This document shows positions 17,725-56,254 of a stretch of 56,254 bases of DNA, in pieces. The stretch is from Candidatus Nomurabacteria bacterium. GTDB taxonomy: Bacteria > Patescibacteriota > Minisyncoccia > Phycocordibacterales > UBA9973. The notes below the pieces were generated by a model. It ran no database searches. It was not told the DNA's origin and saw only the letters and a program-made list of their open reading frames with translations. The stretch covers positions 1 through 56,254 of the forward strand of contig JAHFNO010000008.1 of the NCBI GenBank assembly GCA_023267275.1, given 5' to 3'. Position numbers and translations under genes: made by a program. The stretch's first letter is position 1. Each line of letters starts with the position of its first letter.

Positions 17725-18081
17725 CTAGGCTCTAGCTTTTTCAGTCAATTTATTTAATATTTTCATTACCTCAACAAGATTTGTATCAATTTTAGAATAA
17801 TCAAATTTCTTTGCTCTAAATATTTCCTTGGAAATTATAATTTGTGTTTCTAATTCTGCTGCCGAAGCAAACGCTATTGATAAAAATCTTTTAAATTCAA
17901 TATCTCCTCCTCTCATTTTACCTTCCGCAATATTTGAAGGAATAGAAACAGCAGCACGGCGCATTTGTGATGTTAATCCAAATATTTCTTCTTTTGGAAA
18001 TTTATCGGTTAAATCATAAACAGCAACAACTACTTTTATCGCCTTTTGCCAAACTATAAGGTCTTTATATGTTGTATTCAT
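17725..18081 (-). CDS. Four-helix-bundle protein of the 23S rRNA intervening-sequence (S23/IVP) family
   Basis: YKDLIVWQKAIKVVVAVYDLTDKFPKEEIFGLTSQMRRAAVSIPSNIAEG, the typical family motif. Confidence 0.93.
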   Translation of the reverse strand: MNTTYKDLIVWQKAIKVVVAVYDLTDKFPKEEIFGLTSQMRRAAVSIPSNIAEGKMRGGDIEFKRFLSIAFASAAELETQIIISKEIFRAKKFDYSKIDTNLVEVMKILNKLTEKARA

Positions 18082-20841: not shown

Positions 20842-21231
20842 TTATTTCAGAAATGAGCTAAGGCGTTTTTTGATTTCTTCAAAATCGTTCTCAGGAACCA
20901 TACCGATTTTATAACTCAATCTCTTGCTGTCGATAAGCCTCAATTGTGAAAGAATGGCAGAAGTAGACTCGCCTTCTCTGTATTCGAATTGAAAATAATA
21001 TTTTCCTTTCTTGTCTTTCTTTGTGGTCGGCACAACCCAGCACACCTCATTGTTAAATTTTTTTACAACGATTATGGGGCGCAAAAATTCTTCACCTTTT
21101 CCATCTTGTTCAAAACCAAGATTCAAGCCGATTGAAGAAAACCACATCTCACGCTCATGAAAAAATGGTCGATTCTTGTTTTCCTGCAAATTACTTTTTT
21201 GGCTATGCCATTCACCAAAATTTTTAATCAT
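20842..21231 (-). CDS. PemK/MazF-like toxin-family protein
   Basis: REMWFSSIGLNLGFEQDGKGEEFLRPIIVVKKFNNEVCWVVPTTKKDKKGKYYF...AILSQLRLIDSKRL. Confidence 0.8.
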   Translation of the reverse strand: MIKNFGEWHSQKSNLQENKNRPFFHEREMWFSSIGLNLGFEQDGKGEEFLRPIIVVKKFNNEVCWVVPTTKKDKKGKYYFQFEYREGESTSAILSQLRLIDSKRLSYKIGMVPENDFEEIKKRLSSFLK

Positions 21232-21810: not shown

Positions 21811-22947
21811 TTAAAACTTTGACCACTTGCCTCCACCCGGTGTGTTTACGATCGTGTTGTGCTTCGGGCGATTAATAAATTGATCATTCGAGGGTATATT
21901 TCCTTTCTGCATAAATTCAATGAAGGAATCAAATATCTCTTTGGCGTTATCCAAGTTGTCGAGACTCATGATCCCTTTCAAGTTTTTATTGAGTCTGGCT
22001 TTGTCTTGTTTCGGATTACCCACGGTGTTTTGGAAAAGATTCCATCGCTCTTTCAAATCGGTTCCCCACATCATTGTGTAAAACTGTGAGCTCTCAAGGT
22101 TTGAGTGGCCGAGAATGTTTGTAACATCTGCACTTGCCCCGCCTTCCTTGATGATCTTTCGTCCTCCGTAGTGACGAGCTGAGTGTGCATTGAAAATTGA
22201 GGGCAGTCTGGCACGGTTCGATATCATTCTAAAAACTTCGCACACAGACCGATTCGTCATGCGCTTACCGCTAACATCGTATATGCCACACTTTCTGATT
22301 GAAATAAATACTGCGTTGGGATCGTCGAATGTCATGAGTTTTTGTATCTCACTTTTCTTCTTCAGCCACGCTTTGAGATACTTGCCAGTTTTTGCCGTCC
22401 AGAATATCTCTCGGACCGGACGCTTACCTCTCGATTTCTCGGTTCGTATAAGTGCACAGCCAGATAGGTCTTTATTAAATTGGAGCTCGTCTTCGTCTAC
22501 TGATATTATTTCTCCAGTTCGTGCCCATGAATCCCACACCATATGTACCAAGGCTAGATTTCTGATGTTGTTCGGATTGTTATCGCGCGGAATCGCGCTC
22601 ACTAGTTTTTTGAAGTCTTCATCATTTGCCACGCGCGGGATATTAAATTCTTTCTTTTGAAGCGGAATGAGTGATTCGTTGATGCAGTTGTGTCCTCTTA
22701 AGTTATAAAACTCGAAGAATTTTCGCAAGGCAAGTGCGACAATGTTTATGCCATTGCGCTTCCACCCGAGCCGTTCCATTTCTTTCATGTAGTGCAGTAT
22801 GTGGTGGATTTGAATCTGTTCGATATCTTGATCTCCCATGACAAGGCAAAAAATCCGCAGTGCGGAGTCATATCGAACGACCGTTTGGCCGGTTACTTTG
22901 AACCCTCTCCAATTTTTGAATTCTTCTATTGCTTGGCTTAATTTCAT
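21811..22947 (-). CDS. Tyrosine recombinase / phage integrase
   Basis: ARTGEIISVDEDEL...FNAHSARHYGGRKIIKEGGASADVTNILGHSNLESSQFYTM (catalytic R, HxxR, H, Y). Confidence 0.92.
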   Translation of the reverse strand: MKLSQAIEEFKNWRGFKVTGQTVVRYDSALRIFCLVMGDQDIEQIQIHHILHYMKEMERLGWKRNGINIVALALRKFFEFYNLRGHNCINESLIPLQKKEFNIPRVANDEDFKKLVSAIPRDNNPNNIRNLALVHMVWDSWARTGEIISVDEDELQFNKDLSGCALIRTEKSRGKRPVREIFWTAKTGKYLKAWLKKKSEIQKLMTFDDPNAVFISIRKCGIYDVSGKRMTNRSVCEVFRMISNRARLPSIFNAHSARHYGGRKIIKEGGASADVTNILGHSNLESSQFYTMMWGTDLKERWNLFQNTVGNPKQDKARLNKNLKGIMSLDNLDNAKEIFDSFIEFMQKGNIPSNDQFINRPKHNTIVNTPGGGKWSKF

Positions 22948-24477: not shown

Positions 24478-24798
24478 TTATTTTTGCTCGCCTTTCATCC
24501 GATCAATCATCATTTTGTATCCGCCAGTACCTTCTTTCAGCCAACGATTTATCTTGGTGATCGTAACTGGAGACTCTCCCGTTTCCTCAGTGATTTGGGT
24601 AAACGAAACGCCGGCATCAAGTTTCTTTGCGACTTCCCATCGCATTGCAAATTCTCGCAGATCTCGTTCGCTCATTAAATCTCGAAAGAATGCCTTTAGT
24701 TCATCCTCATTCTTTAATGACAAAAAAACCTTTATTAAATCAGGGGATTTCTGCTCAAGTTCAGCCCATATATCATTTTTTTCTACATCAGATATCAT
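24478..24798 (-). CDS. TrpR-related YerC/YecD-like regulator
   Basis: DLREFAMRWEVAKKLDAGVSFTQITEETGESPVTITKINRWLKEGTGGY. Confidence 0.85.
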   Translation of the reverse strand: MISDVEKNDIWAELEQKSPDLIKVFLSLKNEDELKAFFRDLMSERDLREFAMRWEVAKKLDAGVSFTQITEETGESPVTITKINRWLKEGTGGYKMMIDRMKGEQK

Positions 24799-25529: not shown

Positions 25530-26465
25530 TTATTTCCAATCGAACCCTCTACCAAAATGCCCCCACGTGCAAGTATCTTTGAATTTTACCTGATCAAGTT
25601 TCAGGTACTCCCGCAATCCGCGAGGACTTAGATCGTAGCCGGTGATTTCTTGCTCCTTTCCATCAATGATTGCTACTGCCATCACTGGCTCGTTCTTCCC
25701 TATCGCATATGCGAGCTTTGTTTGAACTTCTTTCGCTGCGTGTTTTTCCAAGAGCTCGACAGCAATTCTTCGAGCCATGTATGCACCCGATCGATCGACT
25801 TTCGTATAATCCTTGCCTGAGAAAGAACCGCCGCCGATCGTAATCTCGGGACCGTAATTGTCTACAATCAACTTGCGACCAGAGAGTCCAGTGTCTGCAT
25901 CAAAACCTCCCTGTGTCCATTCACCTGCGGGATTAATGAGATATTCTTCAGCAGGAATTATTTCCTGCACAAACTTTAAGAGCTCATCGTTTTTTGTATT
26001 CTGAAAACTCGCCACCACTGTGATAACTTTCTCGCCATCGATTGTTACTTGGGTTTTTCCGTCGTAGGGATACTTCTCGAAAATCTTCTTGCAAAGCATT
26101 CGGGCAAGCTGATATTCAAGTGGCATGAAGTTTGGAGTTTCTGCTGTTGCATATCCCTTCATGATTCCTTGGTCGCCAGCACCGCCGGTATCCACGCCGC
26201 GAGCTATCTCGGGGCTTTGTAGGGCAATGTGCGTTATAACCTCGAAATCTGCCCCTACGATGGCTTTTACAATCTGTTCTACCTCGGGCTTTGCTCTGCT
26301 TGTTACCTCGCCGTTTATCGTGACAAGGTTATGCCCACCCATAACTTCGATCGCCACACGGCTCTCTGGATCGCCCTCTAAATAGGCATCGAGAATGCTA
26401 TCGGCGATGTAGTCACATATTTTGTCCGGATGTTTCGGACTCACAAACTCACTTGTTTTTCTCAT
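25530..26465 (-). CDS. metK: S-adenosylmethionine synthetase (short form)
   Basis: MRKTSEFVSPKHPDKICDYIADSILD...GAGDQGIMKGYA...GGGSFSGKDYTKVDRSGAYMARRIA. Confidence 0.95.
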   Translation of the reverse strand: MRKTSEFVSPKHPDKICDYIADSILDAYLEGDPESRVAIEVMGGHNLVTINGEVTSRAKPEVEQIVKAIVGADFEVITHIALQSPEIARGVDTGGAGDQGIMKGYATAETPNFMPLEYQLARMLCKKIFEKYPYDGKTQVTIDGEKVITVVASFQNTKNDELLKFVQEIIPAEEYLINPAGEWTQGGFDADTGLSGRKLIVDNYGPEITIGGGSFSGKDYTKVDRSGAYMARRIAVELLEKHAAKEVQTKLAYAIGKNEPVMAVAIIDGKEQEITGYDLSPRGLREYLKLDQVKFKDTCTWGHFGRGFDWK

Positions 26466-26512
26466 GGTTGTAAATAAAAAATCCTCATAAAGAGGAAAGA
26501 TCGAGGACTAAT

Positions 26513-26626
26513 CGTATCTTTCCGTGACGGCACTTTCGCATCGTCTTGGCTGGATGTGGCACCTTCTTATTTCTAAGGGTTGCCGGTGGGTCGTTGAGCC
26601 AGTCTCTCGCCACTCTCTTGATAACA
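26513..26626 (-). promoter_or_regulatory. SAM-I-type (S-box clan) riboswitch upstream of metK
   Basis: Minus strand: TTATCAAGAGAGTGGCGAGAGACTGGCTCAACGACCCACCGGCAACCCTTAGAAATAAGAAGGTGCCACATCCAGCC..GACGATGCGAAAGTGCCGTC..GATA; keeps S-box landmarks TTATCAAGAG, ACTGGC, CCGGCAACC, GGTGCCA, TCCAGC. Confidence 0.92.
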
Positions 26627-26689
26627 AACTATTTTATTGTAAATGGATTATACCAAAATTATAAAAGATCAGCTAGCTCATTCATAAAT

Positions 26690-28360: not shown

Positions 28361-29416
28361 CTATTTACTCTCTAACGACCTGACTATTTGATCTCCCAGA
28401 ATCTTTCCGAACGCGGGAGGAACAGCATTGCCGATCATCTTCGATATTGAAGCGACGCTGTTTCCTATGAATTCGTAGTCCTTCGGAAAAGTCTGGATAG
28501 TGGCACCCTCTCGAATCGAGATGGCTCTGTTTTCTTCTGGATGTGCAAAGCGGCCATTGCTTATGCTGTAAAATTTGGTAGTGATTGTTGGGGCCGGACG
28601 ATCCCACCACATTCTGCCGTATGTGTCGTAGAACTTCTTTTCGCCCGAAGAATAGCATTCGAGTTTATATTTCTTTTTATTCTGCCAACCAGAACGATCT
28701 CCTCCATTCGCCGGCGTCATTTGCAATCTCTCAATATTCTTTTGGTTTAAATTTGCAGCACTATGTAAAAACTTACTAGAATCTTTTGTTCCTGCTTTTA
28801 TTTTTGAAAATCCATTTTTGGGGCCCAGAATATCCTTAAGAGTTTTTTGTTTGTTTGTTGGCTCAGGGAGAGAGATGTTTGACACTCTGGAAGCAAGCAA
28901 GGTGAACCTCTTTCTTTTCTGAGGAATTCCATACTGTGACATGTCCGTAACATGATGAGCAACTTTATATCCAAGTGATTCTAAAGTGCTTATAAATTTA
29001 CCCATTGGACTTCCCTCTTTTGAAGATATCCCGGGGACATTTTCTACAAGAACAAAGCCCGGATTAAAGTATTCGACAAATCTTTGAAAATCAAGTATTA
29101 AATCTTTAGTTTTTTTCGACTTTTCTCGGCTTGTGTGTATGATGCTCCAAAATTGGCACGGAGCACATCCCGCAAAAATCATGTTATTATCGTTTCTTTT
29201 TATTTTTAAATCCTTTTCGAGTTCTAGAGGAGAGTATTTCGTTACATCTCTTTCAAGGTATATTGATCCTTTGTTGTTTTTTTCATATGTCTCCTTACAA
29301 GACGCTTCAATGTCGACACCCGCAAGAACATTAATACCTGCCGATCTAAGACCGTGCGTGAGCCCCCCTGCACCAGAAAAGAAATCGATGGCTTTTAATG
29401 TGTTTTTTTTAATCAT
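28361..29416 (-). CDS. DNA (cytosine-5) methyltransferase
   Basis: AIDFFSGAGGLTHGLRSAGINVLAGVDIE...CAPCQFWS...VLVENVPGI...SQYGIPQKRKRF...IREGATIQTFPKDYEFIGNS..MIGNAVPP. Confidence 0.92.
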   Translation of the reverse strand: MIKKNTLKAIDFFSGAGGLTHGLRSAGINVLAGVDIEASCKETYEKNNKGSIYLERDVTKYSPLELEKDLKIKRNDNNMIFAGCAPCQFWSIIHTSREKSKKTKDLILDFQRFVEYFNPGFVLVENVPGISSKEGSPMGKFISTLESLGYKVAHHVTDMSQYGIPQKRKRFTLLASRVSNISLPEPTNKQKTLKDILGPKNGFSKIKAGTKDSSKFLHSAANLNQKNIERLQMTPANGGDRSGWQNKKKYKLECYSSGEKKFYDTYGRMWWDRPAPTITTKFYSISNGRFAHPEENRAISIREGATIQTFPKDYEFIGNSVASISKMIGNAVPPAFGKILGDQIVRSLESK

Positions 29417-30197
29417 GGTTTTTTTCTTTGGTTGGAATTTTTACTATTTCACAAGGATCAATTTTAAATTGAAGCATAGCAGCAGAAGGACGTCCGTTAT
29501 CTCCACCCTTTCTTTGCATACCGATTCGACCGATTTTGAGACTACCATCTCTGGTGATTCTTACTGGACCGTTTCCATAAAAATTCATAACCATTGCCAT
29601 TGGAAGCAAAGTCCACACGCTTATATTTTTTTGGTATAAAAGAAGCCAAGATGCAGGGAAACTATCGCGGCCTTTAAATAAATCCGCAACGATTAATATT
29701 TTGTTTTTCTCAAAAAAATCGATAATTTCCGCTTGCTCTTTTGAGGTTAGCTCATCTAGGAAAATCCTTCTTGAATCTTCTGGACTTGGTTTTGGAGGAG
29801 TCAATTCGCCAGTAAAATATTTTAATTGTTTTCCTATTCTCTCTGGTATACCCCAAAGCTCCACATATTTATCTATCCACCTCTTGTCTATTTGATTGAA
29901 TCCAGAATTGTTGCTTACGAGTTTTATTGAAATATTTTCTATACCAGTTCCTTTTTTGAAAAAAATTGTGATCTCCACCTGAACATCTGTTTTGAAATTA
30001 CCTGTTATTTTAACAGCCTTCACGTTTTCGATGTCTTTCATTTGATAGCCCATGACATCCAACCATTTTTGTGCGTCTTCGTCGCTTTTCCATGCGTTGA
30101 ATTTATCAACGACATCCTGTTCATTTTTAAATCCGCCTTTGGCTGTGGCGGAACCTCTTGCGATGAGCTCTTTTAGTTTTAAATTTGTGTCATCCAT
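29409..30197 (-). CDS. Type II restriction endonuclease, HinP1I-like
   Basis: GSATAKGGFKNEQDVVDKFNAWK..AQKWLDVMGY, KLVSNNSGFNQIDKRW, FTGELTPP, and GSLKIGRIGMQRKGGDNGRPSAAMLQFKIDP resemble R.HinP1I as recalled; directly follows an M.HhaI-like methyltransferase. Confidence 0.8.
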   Translation of the reverse strand: MDDTNLKLKELIARGSATAKGGFKNEQDVVDKFNAWKSDEDAQKWLDVMGYQMKDIENVKAVKITGNFKTDVQVEITIFFKKGTGIENISIKLVSNNSGFNQIDKRWIDKYVELWGIPERIGKQLKYFTGELTPPKPSPEDSRRIFLDELTSKEQAEIIDFFEKNKILIVADLFKGRDSFPASWLLLYQKNISVWTLLPMAMVMNFYGNGPVRITRDGSLKIGRIGMQRKGGDNGRPSAAMLQFKIDPCEIVKIPTKEKNHD

Positions 30198-30203
30198 ATA
30201 AAA

Positions 30204-31232
30204 TTAAGTTGTTAATGTTAAGTCGGGATACGCTTTTATAATCTGTTGAAATATTAATTTCAATACAGGTACGGATACGCTATCGCCAAACTGTTTGTAT
30301 GCTTCATTTCTATTTTCTGCTATTTCATAGTCTTCTGGGAAGCCTTGCATGCGGGCACATTCTCTCGGAGTCAGCTTTCTGACTTTACCGTTAATCAAAT
30401 ATGCTCCTGTTTTGCTTGCTGCACCGCCTCCATAGGCCGACAACGTTATACCGGCGGCTTTTGTTGAGTATATCCTCTCTCCTTGTCCACCCCCATTTAT
30501 CTTGCCTATCTGCAAAGGACGACGAGGGTCTACTACTTCCGCATCAGGCTTCGTTATTTTCATGTCTGGTCTGTCGATAAAACCATGAAAGATGTTATCT
30601 TGCTCAAGAATATCTTCAACAGTTTTAAACTCCTTGATTGGTTTTGGAAATTCAAAATTCTTTATTCCAAGGTCTTTCCTGAAGGCAACGATATAGACTC
30701 TTTCTCTCGCCTGAGGAACTCCGTAATCGCTTGATCTCAAAACTTTTATAAAGTGATCATATCCGATTTCTTCAAGTGTGTCTTTGACCACTTGGATTGT
30801 TTTTCCATTATCGTGTTTTAAGAAATTTCTTACGTTCTCCAAAAAAAGAACTTCTGGTTTTGCTTTTTTTGCGATTCTTGCAACATCAAAAAATAAAGTG
30901 CCTCTAGTATCACCGAAACCTTTCATTTTCCCTGAAATACTGAAGGCTTGGCAAGGAAAACCTGCACACAAAACGTTGTGCTTAGGAACTTCTTTTTCGT
31001 CTATTTTTGTAATGTCTCCTTCTGGGCACTCACCGAAGTTTCTTTCGTAAGTATCTTGAGACTTTTCGTCCCATTCTGATCCAAAGACACACTCCCCTCC
31101 ATGACTTTCTAGAGCAATGCGAAATCCTCCAATGCCAGCAAACAAATCAATGAAATCAAAAGTCTGTTGGGTTTTTTCCCAACTTTTCTTTTTGTTTACC
31201 TTTTGAGTTTGAAATAGTGTTGCGACTGGCAT
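30204..31232 (-). CDS. DNA (cytosine-5) methyltransferase, M.HhaI-like
   Basis: FIDLFAGIGGFRIALESHGGECVFGSEWD..LCAGFPCQAFSISGKMKGFGDTRGTLFFD..QGERIYSTKAAGITLSAYGGG..RKLTPRECARMQGFPEDY..QFGDSVSVPV. Confidence 0.95.
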   Translation of the reverse strand: MPVATLFQTQKVNKKKSWEKTQQTFDFIDLFAGIGGFRIALESHGGECVFGSEWDEKSQDTYERNFGECPEGDITKIDEKEVPKHNVLCAGFPCQAFSISGKMKGFGDTRGTLFFDVARIAKKAKPEVLFLENVRNFLKHDNGKTIQVVKDTLEEIGYDHFIKVLRSSDYGVPQARERVYIVAFRKDLGIKNFEFPKPIKEFKTVEDILEQDNIFHGFIDRPDMKITKPDAEVVDPRRPLQIGKINGGGQGERIYSTKAAGITLSAYGGGAASKTGAYLINGKVRKLTPRECARMQGFPEDYEIAENRNEAYKQFGDSVSVPVLKLIFQQIIKAYPDLTLTT

Positions 31233-43931: not shown

Positions 43932-46118
43932 TTATTCGATCGAGATATCTTCAGGCTGTGTGTAGCATCGACAGCTCACATGAAGCGGAGGACTCCCGAC
44001 GCTGTCATACGTGATTGGTAATGTCGACCCACCAGTTCCCGTTACTTCGTCGCCTTTATCAAAAAAGTCATCTTCAATATCGATCGTTTTTCCGTCCATG
44101 CTATCGCACCATTCGCACACGCTGTCATCTTCGGCGGTGTACCACTTAATGCTTTTAACAACACCAGATTGTTTCCATGCTTCTTTGGTTGAATCGTTTG
44201 CAATACGGAATACTTCGGTGCGAGCGACTTGCCCCGCACGCACTTCGTTGCTGTAGTCGTACACGGCATTGATCTTGTCGGTCAGCTCGGGCAGTGACAT
44301 TCCCTCTGATAGACCTTGATCAAGCGTGTCTTTCAAAAGTCCGAGGGTTGTTTCGTTGTAGCTGTCCGCCATAAGTTCGATGGAATGATCAAGCGACTGT
44401 CTTACTTCTGGTGTCATGCGAAAGTTATCAAAGCCGACCAATGATCCGGCTTGTTTGGCTTCTTCTTGATATAGCTCTCGCATGATCGGACTTGAAAAAT
44501 CAATCATAATTCCAAGCCATTCTTGTTTGTTGAAAATGTCGGATGTTGAAACTGCTTTATAACTCTTGAGCTTTTGAATGTTCTTGATTACTTCTTTTCT
44601 TTGGTCATCATTGAAGGTTCGCACACGATCAGCGTGGAGCTTTTCGTAGGGACCAACTCGGATCGCAAATGCTTTATAAAAAATGGCGTATTCTTCGTGC
44701 GATAGCTCGGTTATATCTTTCACTTTCTTTGTCTTCAGTTCTTCAAGTTTTTTATTTTGAACATCAAGTGACTCGGTCAATCGCTTTGCTATTTCTTCCG
44801 AGATGCCCTTTCGTGCCTTGTGATTCTTTGCGAATCGAGTGGATGGTTTCTTTTCAGGTTCAGTATTTTTCTTGCTGAATCTTTTTGCGACTTTTGGTTT
44901 AGGTGCACCAAGTGGAACCTTCGAGAAATCAGTCATTACGCTATCGCCTTTATCGACACCATCAAGACCGAAGTATTCCTCTCGGGCTTCGTTGATTGAC
45001 ATGACTGGTTGCTGTCCAGTCGCTGCTTTCATTTCTTCTATGCGTTGTGCGCGGTCTTCAGGAACAGGATCGCTAAAGTCGAGGTACAAATTTTCGCCAA
45101 AGCGAGGCACAAGAAATTCGTTCAGCTGTTGCACTATCAATTCCATTTTTGGTTTGATGGTTCGAGCGGCAAAGACATAGTTTGCTGTTTCGGCAGTGGC
45201 ACGGTTTGTTTCTGATTCAGAGCTTCCAAGAATTGTTTTTGGCACACGGAACCCGCTCAGAATTTTGTCTCGCATTACTGCCTGCATGTTGGCGAAATCC
45301 ATGTCTTTCGGTGTACTGCTTGCCTCGTCATATTTCACACCTTTTGGAAGGACAGCTACTCGGTACGCATTGCCTGCACCTTTGTATAGATTTTCAAACG
45401 ATGCACGCAGAACTTTCATTTGTGCATCGGTGATTGCCGTCTCTGAAGAAAGCACACCGCCGAGACGAGCACCGTTTCTGAAGTAATTTAGATTTACGTC
45501 ATTGGCGAAGTTGTCTGTTTGAATCCAGTCCATGATTGCCTGCACTGTTCCGATGCCTTGGTATGGATCGTTTGGATCGGGGTATTTGAAATGCAAAATC
45601 TCATACGGCTTGAACGTCTGTGTTTCTCCGTTGATTGAATACTTGTAGCCTTTTATAAACTCCGGTAACTTGGCAGGAATCGGTGATGTGTATTTTGGAC
45701 TAAGTAAAAAGATTGCTTTTGGTATGTCAGTTTCGCTTTTAACTCCATCGAGAAGCCAGTAAGTATTACCAGTGAGTTCAAGGTGTGATGCTGTTAGATA
45801 TTTTAAATCGTAGCCGGTTTGATATGGATTTACTCCTTCGAGCAAATCAAGAATTTCGTGGTCAAATATTTCTTCGTGAACTCCGTCTTTGTTTACTTGA
45901 AAAAGTCGGAAGCGTTGCTTTGCAATTTCTTCAGCGATTGAGCGGACGCATGCATACACCCATCCGTTATATGTGGTCATTGCTTTGTCGATACCCACCT
46001 TTCTTGATTGCGACCACAAGAGAAATGGATCGACATCTGCGACGGCCGAAGCAAGCGCCAGTGTTGCCGCTTTTCTTACGAGACCGATTGTGTTTAATGC
46101 TTTATCAAAAATATTCAT
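43932..46118 (-). CDS. Portal protein fused to a Mu gpF/SPP1 gp7-like head morphogenesis domain
   Basis: Portal part YACVRSIAEEIAKQ..LSPKYTSPIP..IGTVQAIMDWIQTDN; C-terminal ARTEVFRIANDSTKEAWKQSG..EWCDSMDG..HVSCRCY. Confidence 0.85.
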   Translation of the reverse strand: MNIFDKALNTIGLVRKAATLALASAVADVDPFLLWSQSRKVGIDKAMTTYNGWVYACVRSIAEEIAKQRFRLFQVNKDGVHEEIFDHEILDLLEGVNPYQTGYDLKYLTASHLELTGNTYWLLDGVKSETDIPKAIFLLSPKYTSPIPAKLPEFIKGYKYSINGETQTFKPYEILHFKYPDPNDPYQGIGTVQAIMDWIQTDNFANDVNLNYFRNGARLGGVLSSETAITDAQMKVLRASFENLYKGAGNAYRVAVLPKGVKYDEASSTPKDMDFANMQAVMRDKILSGFRVPKTILGSSESETNRATAETANYVFAARTIKPKMELIVQQLNEFLVPRFGENLYLDFSDPVPEDRAQRIEEMKAATGQQPVMSINEAREEYFGLDGVDKGDSVMTDFSKVPLGAPKPKVAKRFSKKNTEPEKKPSTRFAKNHKARKGISEEIAKRLTESLDVQNKKLEELKTKKVKDITELSHEEYAIFYKAFAIRVGPYEKLHADRVRTFNDDQRKEVIKNIQKLKSYKAVSTSDIFNKQEWLGIMIDFSSPIMRELYQEEAKQAGSLVGFDNFRMTPEVRQSLDHSIELMADSYNETTLGLLKDTLDQGLSEGMSLPELTDKINAVYDYSNEVRAGQVARTEVFRIANDSTKEAWKQSGVVKSIKWYTAEDDSVCEWCDSMDGKTIDIEDDFFDKGDEVTGTGGSTLPITYDSVGSPPLHVSCRCYTQPEDISIE

Positions 46119-46190: not shown

Positions 46191-46259
46191 CTTGTGTATC
46201 AAGTCAGACTGTACGAACCAAATTAAAAATGTACTCTTATATTATACCGGCTTACTTTT

Positions 46260-47240
46260 TTAATACAAGGCAATCCCTACCCGCTTTTGCACTTTGTAAG
46301 TGTTGCCGTGACCAAGCAAACCTCTATATGAGCTTATTGTTTCGGGCTTCGGATATCCCTTTAGTTTTCTGATTAATTTCCGCTTTGTCGTAGTCCTGAT
46401 CTTTCGGTGATGCGGGAAATGGACCCAACCAAGGAAATCCACACCCGAACCATATGTTTTGATATATACCTTGTGAGGATGAAGTTTCAGTTTTAACCTT
46501 TCGTTCAGAAAATCATCAATCTTTGGAAGTAAATCTTCTAGATATTTTTTATTATCTGACAAAATAGCGAAGTCGTCTGCGTAACGAATATAATGTTTGA
46601 CCCGGAGTCCTTGCTTCATGTACATGTCAAACTCGTGCATGTAGATATTCACGAGAAGTTGAGACGTTAAATTTCCCAATGGCAACCCAACACCTTCTTG
46701 TTCCGTATGAAAACTTTTCACCACTTGGTTTATGAGCCAGAGTATTTCTTCGTCTTGGATATGTCTCTTCAGGATGGAACGCAAAATATCATGATCCACA
46801 CTCGCAAAGAATTTTCTTATATCGCATTTCAAAATGTAGCATGTACGCGTGTTATTTTTTGATACCCTGTCGGCAAAAACTTTGAAACGCTCAAATGCTC
46901 GGTGCGTTCCTTTGTGCTTCCTGCATGAGTAAGAATCAAAAATAAAACGTGAATCAAAATACCAATACAATTCTTTATAAATCAGATGGTGAAGAACCCT
47001 GTCTCGAACGATCGCCTTGTGAATGTTTCTCGGTTTGGGATCGGAAATATTAAAAGCTGAATACCCAGAATGTTCGTACGTTCTGTCTTTGAGCATGACG
47101 TAAAGTTCAATGAGATTATCCGACAGTTGGACTTCGAATTTCATAACGTCCTTCTTTTGCCTTTTCCCACAGATAAAATGATTCCATGTGGAGAGGATAT
47201 TTTCTATCGATATGATATTGTTATATTTATGAGTGAACAT
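46260..47240 (-). CDS. DGR-type reverse transcriptase
   Basis: YIRYADDFAILSD (RT domain 5), GLPLGNLTSQLLVNIYMHEFD (DGR-type xGxxxSQ in place of the usual SP), KPRNIHKAIVRDRVLHHL; start set at MFTHKYNNIISIENIL. Confidence 0.95.
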   Translation of the reverse strand: MFTHKYNNIISIENILSTWNHFICGKRQKKDVMKFEVQLSDNLIELYVMLKDRTYEHSGYSAFNISDPKPRNIHKAIVRDRVLHHLIYKELYWYFDSRFIFDSYSCRKHKGTHRAFERFKVFADRVSKNNTRTCYILKCDIRKFFASVDHDILRSILKRHIQDEEILWLINQVVKSFHTEQEGVGLPLGNLTSQLLVNIYMHEFDMYMKQGLRVKHYIRYADDFAILSDNKKYLEDLLPKIDDFLNERLKLKLHPHKVYIKTYGSGVDFLGWVHFPHHRKIRTTTKRKLIRKLKGYPKPETISSYRGLLGHGNTYKVQKRVGIALY

Positions 47241-47627
47241 AAGGAAACTACTAAACCTGCCATGACGCAAACCCCTCTCGTTTTGGTGAGAACCAAAGAA
47301 GCATACCGCACTTGGCACGACGCACTGGTTAAAGTGAATCGAGTCGATCGCTATACGATCGGTGCTCGAATCGATGAAACCTTCCTTTCCTTGCTTGAGA
47401 CTATTTTCAGAGCTACTTTCGCCCACGATAAATTTGAGAAGCTTTCTCTTGTTTCTGAGGCTTTAGGTAAAAACGATCTTCTGAAATTCTTTCTTCAGAT
47501 TGGCTGGGAACAAAAAGCTATTGATCATACTGTATACGGTGCACTGATTCTTAATCTCGACGAGGTTGGAAGGATGCTCGGCGGATGGAAGAAAAATCTG
47601 CAAGAAAAAACTCCCACCAACAAATAA
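47229..47627 (+). CDS. Avd-like DGR accessory protein
   Basis: YTIGARIDETFLSLLETIFRATFAHDKFEKLSLVSEALGKNDLLKFFLQIGWEQKAIDHTVYGALILNLDEVGRMLGGWKKNL; alternative start at 47262. Confidence 0.85.
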   Translation: MSEHKETTKPAMTQTPLVLVRTKEAYRTWHDALVKVNRVDRYTIGARIDETFLSLLETIFRATFAHDKFEKLSLVSEALGKNDLLKFFLQIGWEQKAIDHTVYGALILNLDEVGRMLGGWKKNLQEKTPTNK

Positions 47628-47640
47628 TGTGGTGGGAGAA
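47605..47640 (-). terminator. Terminator at the 3' end of the TR transcript
   Basis: Minus strand: CTCCCACCA ... TGGTGGGAG followed by TTTTTTC; the avd stop codon lies in the loop. Confidence 0.75.
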
Positions 47641-47651
47641 AAAAATGAGTA

Positions 47652-47770
47652 GCAGAAGCACAACAGGCAGTTGTCGTCATTCCAGTCATTCTCGAAGTAA
47701 CCGAGGTTGAACTTCCAGTCACCGTCCGAGTTGCGGTTCACGTTCGGCACCCTGTGGTTGCCGTCAGCGT
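47652..47770 (-). repeat. DGR template repeat (TR)
   Basis: 119-bp near-copy of 48116-48234; all 8 mismatches are at A (minus strand) in this copy. Confidence 0.97.
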
Positions 47771-48027
47771 ACGCACAAGCAATGTACGAGAGATCATCCA
47801 TTCCACCACGCTCAGCACCAGCCAAGCGTTGTATTTCATTCGGAGTTTTTAAACTCTCCAATATCTCGCACCGACTTATTTTTGTTTTTTCATAAAAGGA
47901 GGCACTCATCCGGAAGCCGTGACCGCCGAACCACTCGCCAAACCCTTATACGAGATTTCGACTCCGCGAAGCCTTGACCGCACGATAATATCTACTTTCT
48001 GGATATCAGTATATCGGATATTCAAAA

Positions 48028-48060
48028 TAAAAAAAGAGCCTTTGCTTTCGCAAAGGCTCC
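48028..48060 (-). terminator. 10-bp GAAA-tetraloop hairpin plus T tract downstream of VR
   Basis: Minus strand: GAGCCTTTGC GAAA GCAAAGGCTC TTTTTTT. Confidence 0.9.
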
Positions 48061-48106
48061 AAGGGTCAAAGACCCAATTGATACTAAGTGACCAAGCGAC
48101 CAAGGA

Positions 48107-48772
48107 CTACTTGTCGCAGAAGCACAACAGGCAGTGGCCGTCATCCCAGTCATTCTCGAAGCAACCGAGGCTGAACTTCCAGTCACCGTCCGAGTAGCGG
48201 TCCACGCTCGGCACCCTGTGGTTGCCGTCAGCGTCTTCCCAGAGAGCGTCCTTCTCATCGAAGGAAACAGTCCATTTGGACACTGGGAACTGGTCCGCCT
48301 TGCTGTCCTGCAACAACGTGATGCCCTGTCCGCCGACGAGGATGGCCCCCTGCTTCTTCAGGAAGGTCATGCAGTCTCCGCTCGTTACTGTTGCCAGTAT
48401 CGGGAAGATTCGCACGCGGTAGGTTTTGCCCGGCTCGAGTTTGTTCGTCGCTTTCGCGAAGTTCTCGCTCGAGAGGTCATCGTTGAAGTAGTAGGTGGTC
48501 TTCAGCTTCTTGGTCTTCTTGGCGAAGGTGTCGAGCTGGGTGTCGTGCTTGTAGTCTGCCGGCACCGTAAACTCGAAGTCCTTCATCGCGGGACCGAAGC
48601 GCTGATCCACCATGGCGAGCTTCTGCAGGATGGGCTTCATTTGCTCTTGCAACGTGCCACCTGCTTTAATGATTTCCTGAGCCTCATCTTTCGAGAAGCC
48701 CAACGCACGAACCGCGTCTCTTACGAGATCGGCAATGCGATTTTCTTGGTTTGACGTGATCTTTTCAGTCAT
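48107..48772 (-). CDS. DGR target protein with C-terminal variable region (C-type-lectin-like VR style)
   Basis: MTEKITSNQENRIADLV...GNHRVPSVDRYSDGDWKFSLGCFENDWDDGHCLLCFCDK*; VR occupies the last ~40 residues; AAGGAAA before ATG. Confidence 0.93.
   Translation of the reverse strand: MTEKITSNQENRIADLVRDAVRALGFSKDEAQEIIKAGGTLQEQMKPILQKLAMVDQRFGPAMKDFEFTVPADYKHDTQLDTFAKKTKKLKTTYYFNDDLSSENFAKATNKLEPGKTYRVRIFPILATVTSGDCMTFLKKQGAILVGGQGITLLQDSKADQFPVSKWTVSFDEKDALWEDADGNHRVPSVDRYSDGDWKFSLGCFENDWDDGHCLLCFCDK
48116..48234 (-). repeat. DGR variable repeat (VR)
   Basis: Differs from TR at 48136, 48138, 48145, 48162, 48171, 48196, 48202 and 48207 only. Confidence 0.97.
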
Positions 48773-48842
48773 CGTATTTCCTTTTTTGAATGTACAATCC
48801 AGAATCTGCTGGAACAGTTGCAAGGATACTTGCTATGGGAAC

Positions 48843-48871
48843 ATTATAGCAAAAACAACACTATTTGTCAA
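48843..48871 (-). promoter_or_regulatory. Perfect consensus sigma70 promoter for the DGR target
   Basis: Minus strand: TTGACA-17 bp-TATAAT. Confidence 0.9.
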
Positions 48872-48891
48872 TATGTCAAGTATGCCTTTAT

Positions 48892-49086
48892 TTATAAAGG
48901 GAAAGCAGTGAATTCGTCGGTTTCTTCCCCTTTTCTTTTTATTCTATATTCCGTAAGAATAACCTTTTGGTCTTGGATTTTTATTATAATTTCTCCGAAC
49001 TTAATTTGAGACGCCAAAGTCATGATCTCATCCCATTCAGAGGTAACTTCTCTCACAACTCTCGGTTTTTGTTTTTGTTGGTTCAT
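48892..49086 (-). CDS. Small protein resembling DUF2292/YezD family
   Basis: SQIKFGEIIIKIQDQKVILTEYRIKRKG. Confidence 0.55.
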   Translation of the reverse strand: MNQQKQKPRVVREVTSEWDEIMTLASQIKFGEIIIKIQDQKVILTEYRIKRKGEETDEFTAFPL

Positions 49087-50537
49087 ATGAGTCCTATTAC
49101 TTCGGGATTCTGCATTCCTTGCTGCACTAATCCAAGGATTAAATACACGAATGCATCGACAAGGTCATCGTGTTCTTCCACTCCAAATCCGAGAAGCTGA
49201 ATCAATAAGTCTTCACATCCGTAGCGAGGAAAAACCACTGTTCCGTTTTGAATGTATATTGCGATCGCACGAAGTCTCGCTCGCTTGTCCCCACCGGCAC
49301 GCATCGCAATCACTGGTAAAAGTGCACGCTCCATTTCTTCGATCGCTGCACGCTGATACTGAACGTCTTCTACGAAAAAAATTCCGAACGGATTGCCGAC
49401 AGCCATTGCTTTAGTTGTCTCGATTGTTTCGTGGAATGAAAGACGAGCATTAATCGGATTTGGTTTTATGTAAATTTTCGGGATGCCATCTCTCACGAAT
49501 GATGTACCGGAAACCATCGACGTGTAGTCGGCAGTTTCCTTTTTTGAAATAGCGAGGTCAATGCCTGTGCCATGCAGTCCGTCTTCAAGCTCGGGAGGTA
49601 TTCTATCGTAGTATTGTATCCAGTCTTCATGCACGTCGGCTCCTTCTTCCGGTACGACTTTGAGCAGATACTCTCTTTGGTATGCATTCAATCCTACTTT
49701 GTCACGCTGAGCATCGAGTGCATATTGATTCGGATACTTTCCAAGCCACATAATCTTGCCGTCTTTTACGAGTGGATAGTCCAGTTGCTTGAACGTCTTG
49801 TCTCGCTTGAGTCGTGCCATCAATGCATCGGTGTGCAATTGGTTGCCGATAACCACAAGTCGTCCGTTCAATTCGTCGATAGCAGGAATTACTTCGCCTC
49901 TGAGCCATCTCTCTGTCTTGTCTCTATTTTCTTTAGTACGCACCCATTCCAAATCTTCAGGATCGTCTACGACTATGAGTTTTGGTCTGTGTTGGTTGTG
50001 TCTCAATCCACGAACCTTTTGCCCTCGGGACCGAGCAAGGATGCGAACACCATTTGAGAGAAGCATGTTCTTTGCTTGCCATTCTTCTTCGCTTTCAAGC
50101 GTCCAGTCAGCGACAAACTCGCCTTTCACAGCTCCGTAATCTTGTTTTATGATCTCGTTGTTTTCGAGCTCGTTCTTAATGTTGGCGATGTTGATTGCCG
50201 ATTGCAGTCCAGTGTCAGCGATCGGCAAAATGAATTTATACTGTTCGGGATATTCGAGTGCTGCCCACAACGGTAACGCCAACGATCCGAACGTACTCTT
50301 TGCACTTCCACGGAAACCGACAATCTCAATCATCTTTTCTTTATGGTCGCCAAGTATTCCCAAGAGTTCCGAATGAAAAATCGCAGGCTCTATGTCTAAG
50401 TAGTGCGACAAATACACGAGACAAAATCCAGTAAGTGTTTTAGCGAGCAGTCGGCGCGTTTCGTAATCATCAGGAAATGCGTTACTGTTCCGCCACTCTG
50501 CTGTCTGTTGATTCAATTGTGAGGGTTGGTTCTGCAT
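49083..50537 (-). CDS. Terminase large subunit
   Basis: EMIEIVGFRGSAKSTFGSLALPLWAAL (Walker A-like), PKLIVVDDPEDLEWV, TGIDLAISKKETADYTSMV. Confidence 0.9.
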   Translation of the reverse strand: MQNQPSQLNQQTAEWRNSNAFPDDYETRRLLAKTLTGFCLVYLSHYLDIEPAIFHSELLGILGDHKEKMIEIVGFRGSAKSTFGSLALPLWAALEYPEQYKFILPIADTGLQSAINIANIKNELENNEIIKQDYGAVKGEFVADWTLESEEEWQAKNMLLSNGVRILARSRGQKVRGLRHNQHRPKLIVVDDPEDLEWVRTKENRDKTERWLRGEVIPAIDELNGRLVVIGNQLHTDALMARLKRDKTFKQLDYPLVKDGKIMWLGKYPNQYALDAQRDKVGLNAYQREYLLKVVPEEGADVHEDWIQYYDRIPPELEDGLHGTGIDLAISKKETADYTSMVSGTSFVRDGIPKIYIKPNPINARLSFHETIETTKAMAVGNPFGIFFVEDVQYQRAAIEEMERALLPVIAMRAGGDKRARLRAIAIYIQNGTVVFPRYGCEDLLIQLLGFGVEEHDDLVDAFVYLILGLVQQGMQNPEVIGLI

Positions 50538-56251: not shown

Positions 56252-56254
56252 AAT

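Follow-up and report, generated by a model that had tools for sequence, protein, structure and literature searches.

How did a diversity-generating retroelement (DGR) come to lie among the head genes of a Patescibacteria prophage, and how is the RNA that serves as its template organized? Few groups are as rich in DGRs as the Patescibacteria and, to our knowledge, the mechanism of these elements is known almost only from BPP-1. The window analysed here is a stretch of 56,254 nucleotides corresponding to one whole contig of a Candidatus Nomurabacteria genome (1.02 Mb in 33 contigs, with estimates of 100% for completeness and 4.1% for contamination). Its features are collected in Table 1.

Table 1. 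Features of the retroelement and of the surrounding prophage (positions in the window).
Feature	Position	Strand	Remarks
Prophage	21400–56254	-	Integrase, portal, TerL, capsid, tail tube; left edge at about 21.3–21.5 kb
Integrase	21811–22947		Host genes to the left, head and tail genes to the right
Portal/Mu F-like fusion	43932–46118	-	Start at 46118 suggested by homologues
Inserted DGR cargo	46256–48891	-	Between the ORF 48892–49086 and the portal gene
Reverse transcriptase (RT)	46260–47240	-	326 aa from ATG 47240
avd	47229–47627	+	Antisense to target, TR and RT; start at 47229 or 47262
Spacer and hairpin CTCCCACCA/TGGTGGGAG followed by T6	47605–47648	-	Terminator-like 3' end of the TR RNA; hairpin at 47611–47638; overlaps the 3' end of avd
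Template repeat (TR)	47652–47770	-	119-bp TR/VR pair
Structured RNA leader	47771–48001	-	About 230 nt; 5' domain 47884–47987, 3' multibranch domain 47781–47878
A-rich linker	47875–47891	-	Proposed, from permutation tests, to pair with the spacer 3' of the TR
-10 box TATACT of the TR RNA	48008–48013	-	Putative transcript start at about 48001
10-bp stem, GAAA loop, T-run	48036–48059	-	Target terminator and/or target-site hairpin
DGR target gene	48107–48772	-	221 aa; predicted C-terminal C-type-lectin fold
Variable repeat (VR)	48116–48234	-	119-bp TR/VR pair
Target-gene promoter TTGACA-17-TATAAT	48843–48871	-	12/12 match to the sigma-70 consensus
Terminase large subunit (TerL)	49083–50537	-	phrog_38, 5e-63

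A complete retroelement between the terminase and portal genes of a prophage

Judged by gene content, the integrase gene, with host genes to its left (rpiB, rpe, transketolase, and prfA) and head and tail genes to its right, identifies the region as a prophage. For the ribulose-phosphate epimerase encoded on the host side of the integrase, the best matches were to the same genus. The contig stops at position 56,254, so that the prophage lacks its right end; the gene order of the related phage L166 suggests that an estimated 1–1.5 kb lies beyond the contig. The DGR is flanked by genes encoding TerL, the portal/Mu-F protein, a protease, and an HK97-type capsid.

The prophage region also contains a SAM-I riboswitch (26512–26627, minus strand) upstream of an S-adenosylmethionine synthetase gene (25530–26465), and a HinP1I-like restriction-modification set (28361–31232) beside this pair; the related prophage L296 has an S-adenosylmethionine synthetase gene too. 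A Trp-repressor-like gene (24478–24798) is located in the integrase region and a MazF-like toxin gene (20842–21231) at the prophage edge. In the host, the two transketolase genes are separated by a gene (17725–18081, minus strand) for a 23S rRNA intervening-sequence protein, which also has a weak match to the bAvd profile.

The RT ORF matched RVT_1 (6e-24) and phrog_1423 (2e-100), and its intact translation carries the LGNLTSQ motif and the catalytic YADD motif. ATG 47240 is the most likely start codon of the RT, judging from the start positions of its nearest relatives. In a tree containing only DGR RTs, the protein grouped with RTs of Patescibacteria DGRs, which have TR/VR pairs. Avd matched bAvd (3e-10) and phrog_3206 (2e-15). 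The target matched no known phage protein family in PHROGs. Its AlphaFold model had a pLDDT of 86, and the matches listed by fold comparison were mostly C-type-lectin domains, with middling Z scores of up to 6.7; the VR falls in the ligand-binding end of this predicted fold. The target may have a role in lysogenic conversion or host defence instead of one in the virion. The same genome harbors a second DGR (L031, G000:C22:66–69 kb), which has the same leader RNA and an RT of a different group, about 55% identical.

The sequence-only reading of this DNA had proposed a complete DGR, with a DGR-type RT and an Avd-like protein, placed between the terminase and portal genes of a CPR prophage. All these parts were recovered, and in the tree of DGR RTs the RT grouped with Patescibacteria members. 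That reading overlooked the location of avd on the plus strand, antisense to the rest of the cassette, the terminator after the TR, the structured RNA around it, and the status of the cassette as an insertion of cellular type that close phages lack.

Divergence of the repeats is restricted to template adenines

TR and VR differed at 8 of 119 positions. All eight were TR adenines, all eight changes were nonsynonymous, and six of them were in AAY codons, in agreement with what had been read from the sequence. Extending the repeat by 3 nt added a single mismatch, at a non-A position of the 3' edge. Whether VR variation strays from adenine positions was examined by comparison with the closest related cassette, L069, in place of sequencing reads. 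Over 116 positions, the two cassettes had 10 differences in the TR and 28 in the VR. Of the sites with an adenine in both TRs, 18 of 25 differed between the VRs, versus 1 of 81 identical non-A sites (p = 9e-14). The differences between the two VRs thus follow the adenine-only pattern, as seen between lineages rather than among reads.

The cassette had been described as active-looking. Its intact parts and the 8/8 substitutions at adenines agree with this description, with the caveat that the proportion of changed template adenines in the window VR (8/30) is the lowest of 77 loci of the clade. In L069, 20 of 28 adenines were changed. Having the fewest changed adenines in the clade, the VR of the window is perhaps slow, recently reset, or idle; the value is compatible with a recent reset, few rounds of diversification, or low activity. 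The same value, together with the occurrence of RT-less or eroded cassettes in relatives, would be expected if the cassette had been carried into the phage and was now an inactive, decaying passenger. We consider this unlikely for an element in which RT, Avd, target, and RNA helices are all intact and every TR/VR change is nonsynonymous and at an adenine.

The cassette was inserted into the phage

Homology between the window and three phages with an empty site (L048, L050, and L149) ends at about position 48891 (48862 in one of them) and restarts at 46246–46250. In the five close phages (L048–L051 and L149; TerL identity of 87–92%), a small ORF comes after TerL and is separated from the portal gene by a short promoter region that is compact and alignable. 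RT, Avd, and target were absent between TerL and portal in every relative (about 30) in which both of these genes were found. The closest cassette, L069, is chromosomal and located between tig (trigger factor) and clpP in Paceibacterota Tobar13m-G46 (JAIPIY010000001.1, also recorded as L292). Its RT is 79% identical and its target 75% identical to those of the window, the two RTs are sisters in the tree of DGR RTs (98% SH-aLRT), and DNA homology spans the region from the target ATG to the RT stop codon. Other cargo was detected between TerL and portal, namely a GNAT-like gene in L156 (7641–8147) and a cytosine methylase in L170 (9936–10839); the presence of the GNAT-like gene at the same place in a relative indicates that the site takes cargo. 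The inserted unit is absent from close phages and has its own promoter and terminator. By these comparisons, the element looks like a cellular cassette captured as a moron, a recent insertion and not an ancestral part of the phage.

Phage DGRs are common, and Patescibacteria-type DGRs were found near terminase genes in L134, L136, L144, L184, and L185. It could accordingly be argued that the DGR is ancestral in this phage lineage and was lost from all sampled relatives. We regard this as very unlikely in view of the absence of the DGR from all TerL-portal relatives examined, the compact promoter region found at the site in the five closest phages, the chromosomal location of the nearest cassette, and the use of the site by other cargo. 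The RTs of the terminase-adjacent DGRs are, moreover, scattered in the tree. Because they sit on scattered branches, Patescibacteria-type DGRs were probably captured by phages several times.

Could a chromosomal DGR have been joined to a prophage contig by faulty assembly or binning? The genome is a multi-contig assembly with some estimated contamination. Both junctions are nonetheless internal to a single 56-kb contig, and phage homology restarts at the expected place on both sides. The genome contains no second identical copy of the RT, and the cassette RT is 21% different from the nearest known RT. An artefact is scarcely credible on these grounds, and we retain the insertion of a cellular cassette.

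Avd is antisense in Patescibacteria cassettes

In the window, avd lies between the TR and the RT gene on the opposite strand, and RT and avd form overlapping head-to-head genes. The conservation of this layout was surveyed in DGR loci found by their RT; viral contigs searched with a single RT sequence yielded no locus, and an alignment query yielded 78. Avd was encoded opposite to the RT strand in all 93 Patescibacteria loci with a detected Avd (a few loci being the same contig represented twice; three further loci had no detected Avd) and in 8 of 8 related viral contigs. In the other viral DGRs, Avd was on the RT strand in 50 loci and was not detected in 20. The order target-VR, TR, antisense avd, RT was conserved in 75 of the 76 Patescibacteria loci that could be scored. 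The window cassette departs from the BPP-1-type layout, in which avd is co-oriented and 5' of the TR. The long structured 3' spacer that precedes the RT gene in that layout was likewise not found, as a hairpin begins within about 10 nt of the TR and is followed by antisense avd.

A conserved RNA structure precedes the TR

The region of about 230 nt located 5' of the TR was aligned for 15 close loci and folded with RNAalifold. The consensus comprised 54 base pairs, 37 of which displayed compensatory changes, and 96.4% of cells paired. None of 500 shuffled alignments reached the observed value for any measure, and slid controls were far lower. Folding of the whole element gave a modest z of -1.64. 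Conservation at the DNA level rather than in RNA was considered and rejected: some positions keep G-U pairs in 13–15 of the 15 sequences, where the opposite strand would have C-A mismatches, indicating that the structure is formed by RNA. Coding constraint was also considered, since a 148-aa ORF (47463–47909) extends across the TR, and rejected, since L069 has an in-frame stop codon in it with the RNA conserved.

No Rfam family covered the leader at its gathering score in the window and 12 relatives; a match to RT-9 scored 19.9 bits, below its cut-off of 46.1, and was attributed to chance. Among the other loci, a LOOT RNA (RF03000) was present just downstream of the DGR RT in L144 (11063–11180, plus strand), a contig from Patescibacteria that also has a terminase gene.

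The 3' domain of the leader was used to build a covariance model, R1, which matched 62 of 76 held-out Patescibacteria DGR loci; several of the 14 loci without a match have divergent RTs. The match ended at most 21 nt from the start of the TR in all 50 loci in which the distance was measured, and at most 8 nt from it in 46 of these. R1 matched none of 55 other viral DGR loci and none of five phages without the cassette. In a scan of genomes not selected by RT, R1 matches were obtained in 54 of 297 genomes. Of the 68 matches in this unbiased scan, 45 were located 522–622 nt (910 nt in one case) upstream of an RT gene on the same strand; some of the remaining matches were near contig ends.

Three loci combined the leader RNA with TR/VR pairs whose mismatches were at adenines (18/18 in L313, 20/22 in L320, and 10/10 in L323) and had no RT or Avd within the stretches of about 7 kb that were available. 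RTs were present elsewhere in genomes G253 and G321, and none was found in G221. A TR/VR pair and leader without a nearby RT or Avd are compatible with a trans-acting RNA; these arrangements fit, and do not prove, action of the TR RNA in trans.

Putative signals bounding the TR RNA and a proposed long-range helix

TATA-type hexamers upstream of the leader occupied a narrow range of positions in the 15 aligned loci and were found in this region in 50 of 79 clade loci, versus 7–8 of 79 elsewhere. A perfect hairpin followed by a T-run was detected within 70 nt 3' of the TR in 39 of 79 clade loci, where shuffles would lead one to expect 0.35. On the opposite strand it was found in 1 of the 79 loci, and none of 51 other viral DGRs had it. 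The strict hairpin is hence present in only half of the clade. It was also considered as the terminator of avd itself, and this was rejected because A follows it on the avd strand and because of the opposite-strand count. No RT promoter was identified in the cassette. The hairpin with a GAAA loop located after the VR may be compared with the GRNA loops found downstream of the VR in BPP-1-like DGRs (PMC3240598).

Complementarity of the A-rich linker, which precedes the 3' domain, to the spacer just 3' of the TR was greater within than between loci (0 of 20,000 permutations). This pairing had a z of -6.6, versus -1.7 to +1.5 for five control pairings. Examples of linker and spacer are AAATGAAGA/TCTTCATTT, AAATAAAGA/TCTTTATTT, and AAATGAAAA/TTTTCATTT; in the window, the helix consists only of an A/U run of 7 bp.

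A promoter-like box precedes the leader and a terminator-like hairpin comes after it; the spacer immediately before this hairpin can pair with the linker of the leader. This arrangement would also suit a cis-regulatory element, attenuator or riboswitch-like, controlling transcription into the TR and beyond, instead of a scaffold for RT-Avd. No alternative pairing that breaks the terminator hairpin was found, however, no same-strand gene lies directly downstream except RT, beyond antisense avd, and the leader accompanies the TR even where RT and Avd are not nearby. Cis-regulation is the chief rival to the scaffold mechanism, and we judge it rather doubtful.

Proposed mechanism

The scaffold mechanism would operate as follows. 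A temperate phage would have captured a Patescibacteria-type DGR as a moron between TerL and the portal gene. A short TR transcript would start at its own promoter (-10 at 48013) and end at the hairpin just 3' of the TR. The folded leader of about 230 nt and the long-range helix between its linker and the spacer would present the 3' end of the TR to RT-Avd, which would bind the leader. RT-Avd, made separately from the overlapping head-to-head genes, would copy the TR with random bases opposite adenine, and the cDNA would replace the VR at the 3' end of the target. A discrete TR transcript in which leader and closing helix hold the TR 3' end for RT-Avd, replacing the 3' spacer of the BPP-1 type, is the most likely organization.

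For the locus as a whole, we consider it probable that a Patescibacteria-type cassette (cellular, similar to 'clade 2' of Roux) was captured by a temperate phage and diversifies its own C-type-lectin target from the prophage by means of a leader-bearing TR RNA. A broader proposal, to which we give about even credence, is that the template RNA of Patescibacteria DGRs is a stand-alone molecule of a type not yet described, comprising the folded 5' leader of about 230 nt, the TR, the leader-spacer helix, and a terminator, which would act in trans and replace the 3' spacer scaffold of BPP-1; its portability would allow cassettes or RT-less TR/target units to move between chromosomes and phages.

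The conserved RNA on the other side of the TR and the antisense Avd suggest that RNA recognition and cDNA priming are differently organized in this clade. A conserved folded leader on the template RNA, which the textbook system does not show, opens the working of these common cassettes to experiment. The leader is thus a testable element, and R1 provides a search model for such cassettes, including those lacking RT. The prophage, with its empty sites in relatives and a chromosomal sister cassette, documents the entry of a largely cellular DGR type into a phage.

Comparison with known systems

The DGR itself is of a known kind. In the literature searched, no report was found of the leader RNA, of the terminator after the TR, or of the clade-wide antisense Avd, although the orientation of Avd may have an earlier description; two recent papers on Patescibacteria phages and prophages leave DGRs unmentioned.

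The cassette resembles DGR clade 2, which Roux et al. (2021; PMC8144416) present as Patescibacteria-restricted and almost entirely cellular; Avd, its orientation, and a TR leader RNA are not mentioned in the text consulted. The relatives of the window RT are nearly all from Patescibacteria chromosomes, and in our own tree of DGR RTs this RT is sister to a chromosomal RT within a Patescibacteria group. The target similarly has no recognisable transmembrane or other conserved domain. The window cassette differs from clade 2 in being carried by a phage.

The chromosomal cassette of Tobar13m-G46 shares gene order, leader RNA, hairpin, and the target and RT identities given above. It differs by its chromosomal trigger factor/clpP location, its upstream region, and its larger fraction of changed VR adenines. 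Phage morons are likewise inserted genes with their own promoter and terminator, located between essential phage genes and absent in relatives; here, the cargo is a whole self-diversifying retroelement.

The BPP-1 DGR (mtd-avd-TR-brt) shares with the window cassette an RT, Avd, adenine-restricted TR/VR change, a C-type-lectin target with a C-terminal VR, and a hairpin after the VR. It diversifies a tail fibre, whereas the target of the window is unlike any known phage protein family. The avd gene of BPP-1 precedes the TR in the same orientation, and its essential RNA structure is the spacer 3' of the TR, which recruits bRT-Avd and from which cDNA synthesis is primed (PMC12875486). In the window, the TR has just a short spacer and a hairpin after it, an antisense avd separates TR from RT, and the conserved RNA structure lies 5' of the TR instead of 3' of it.
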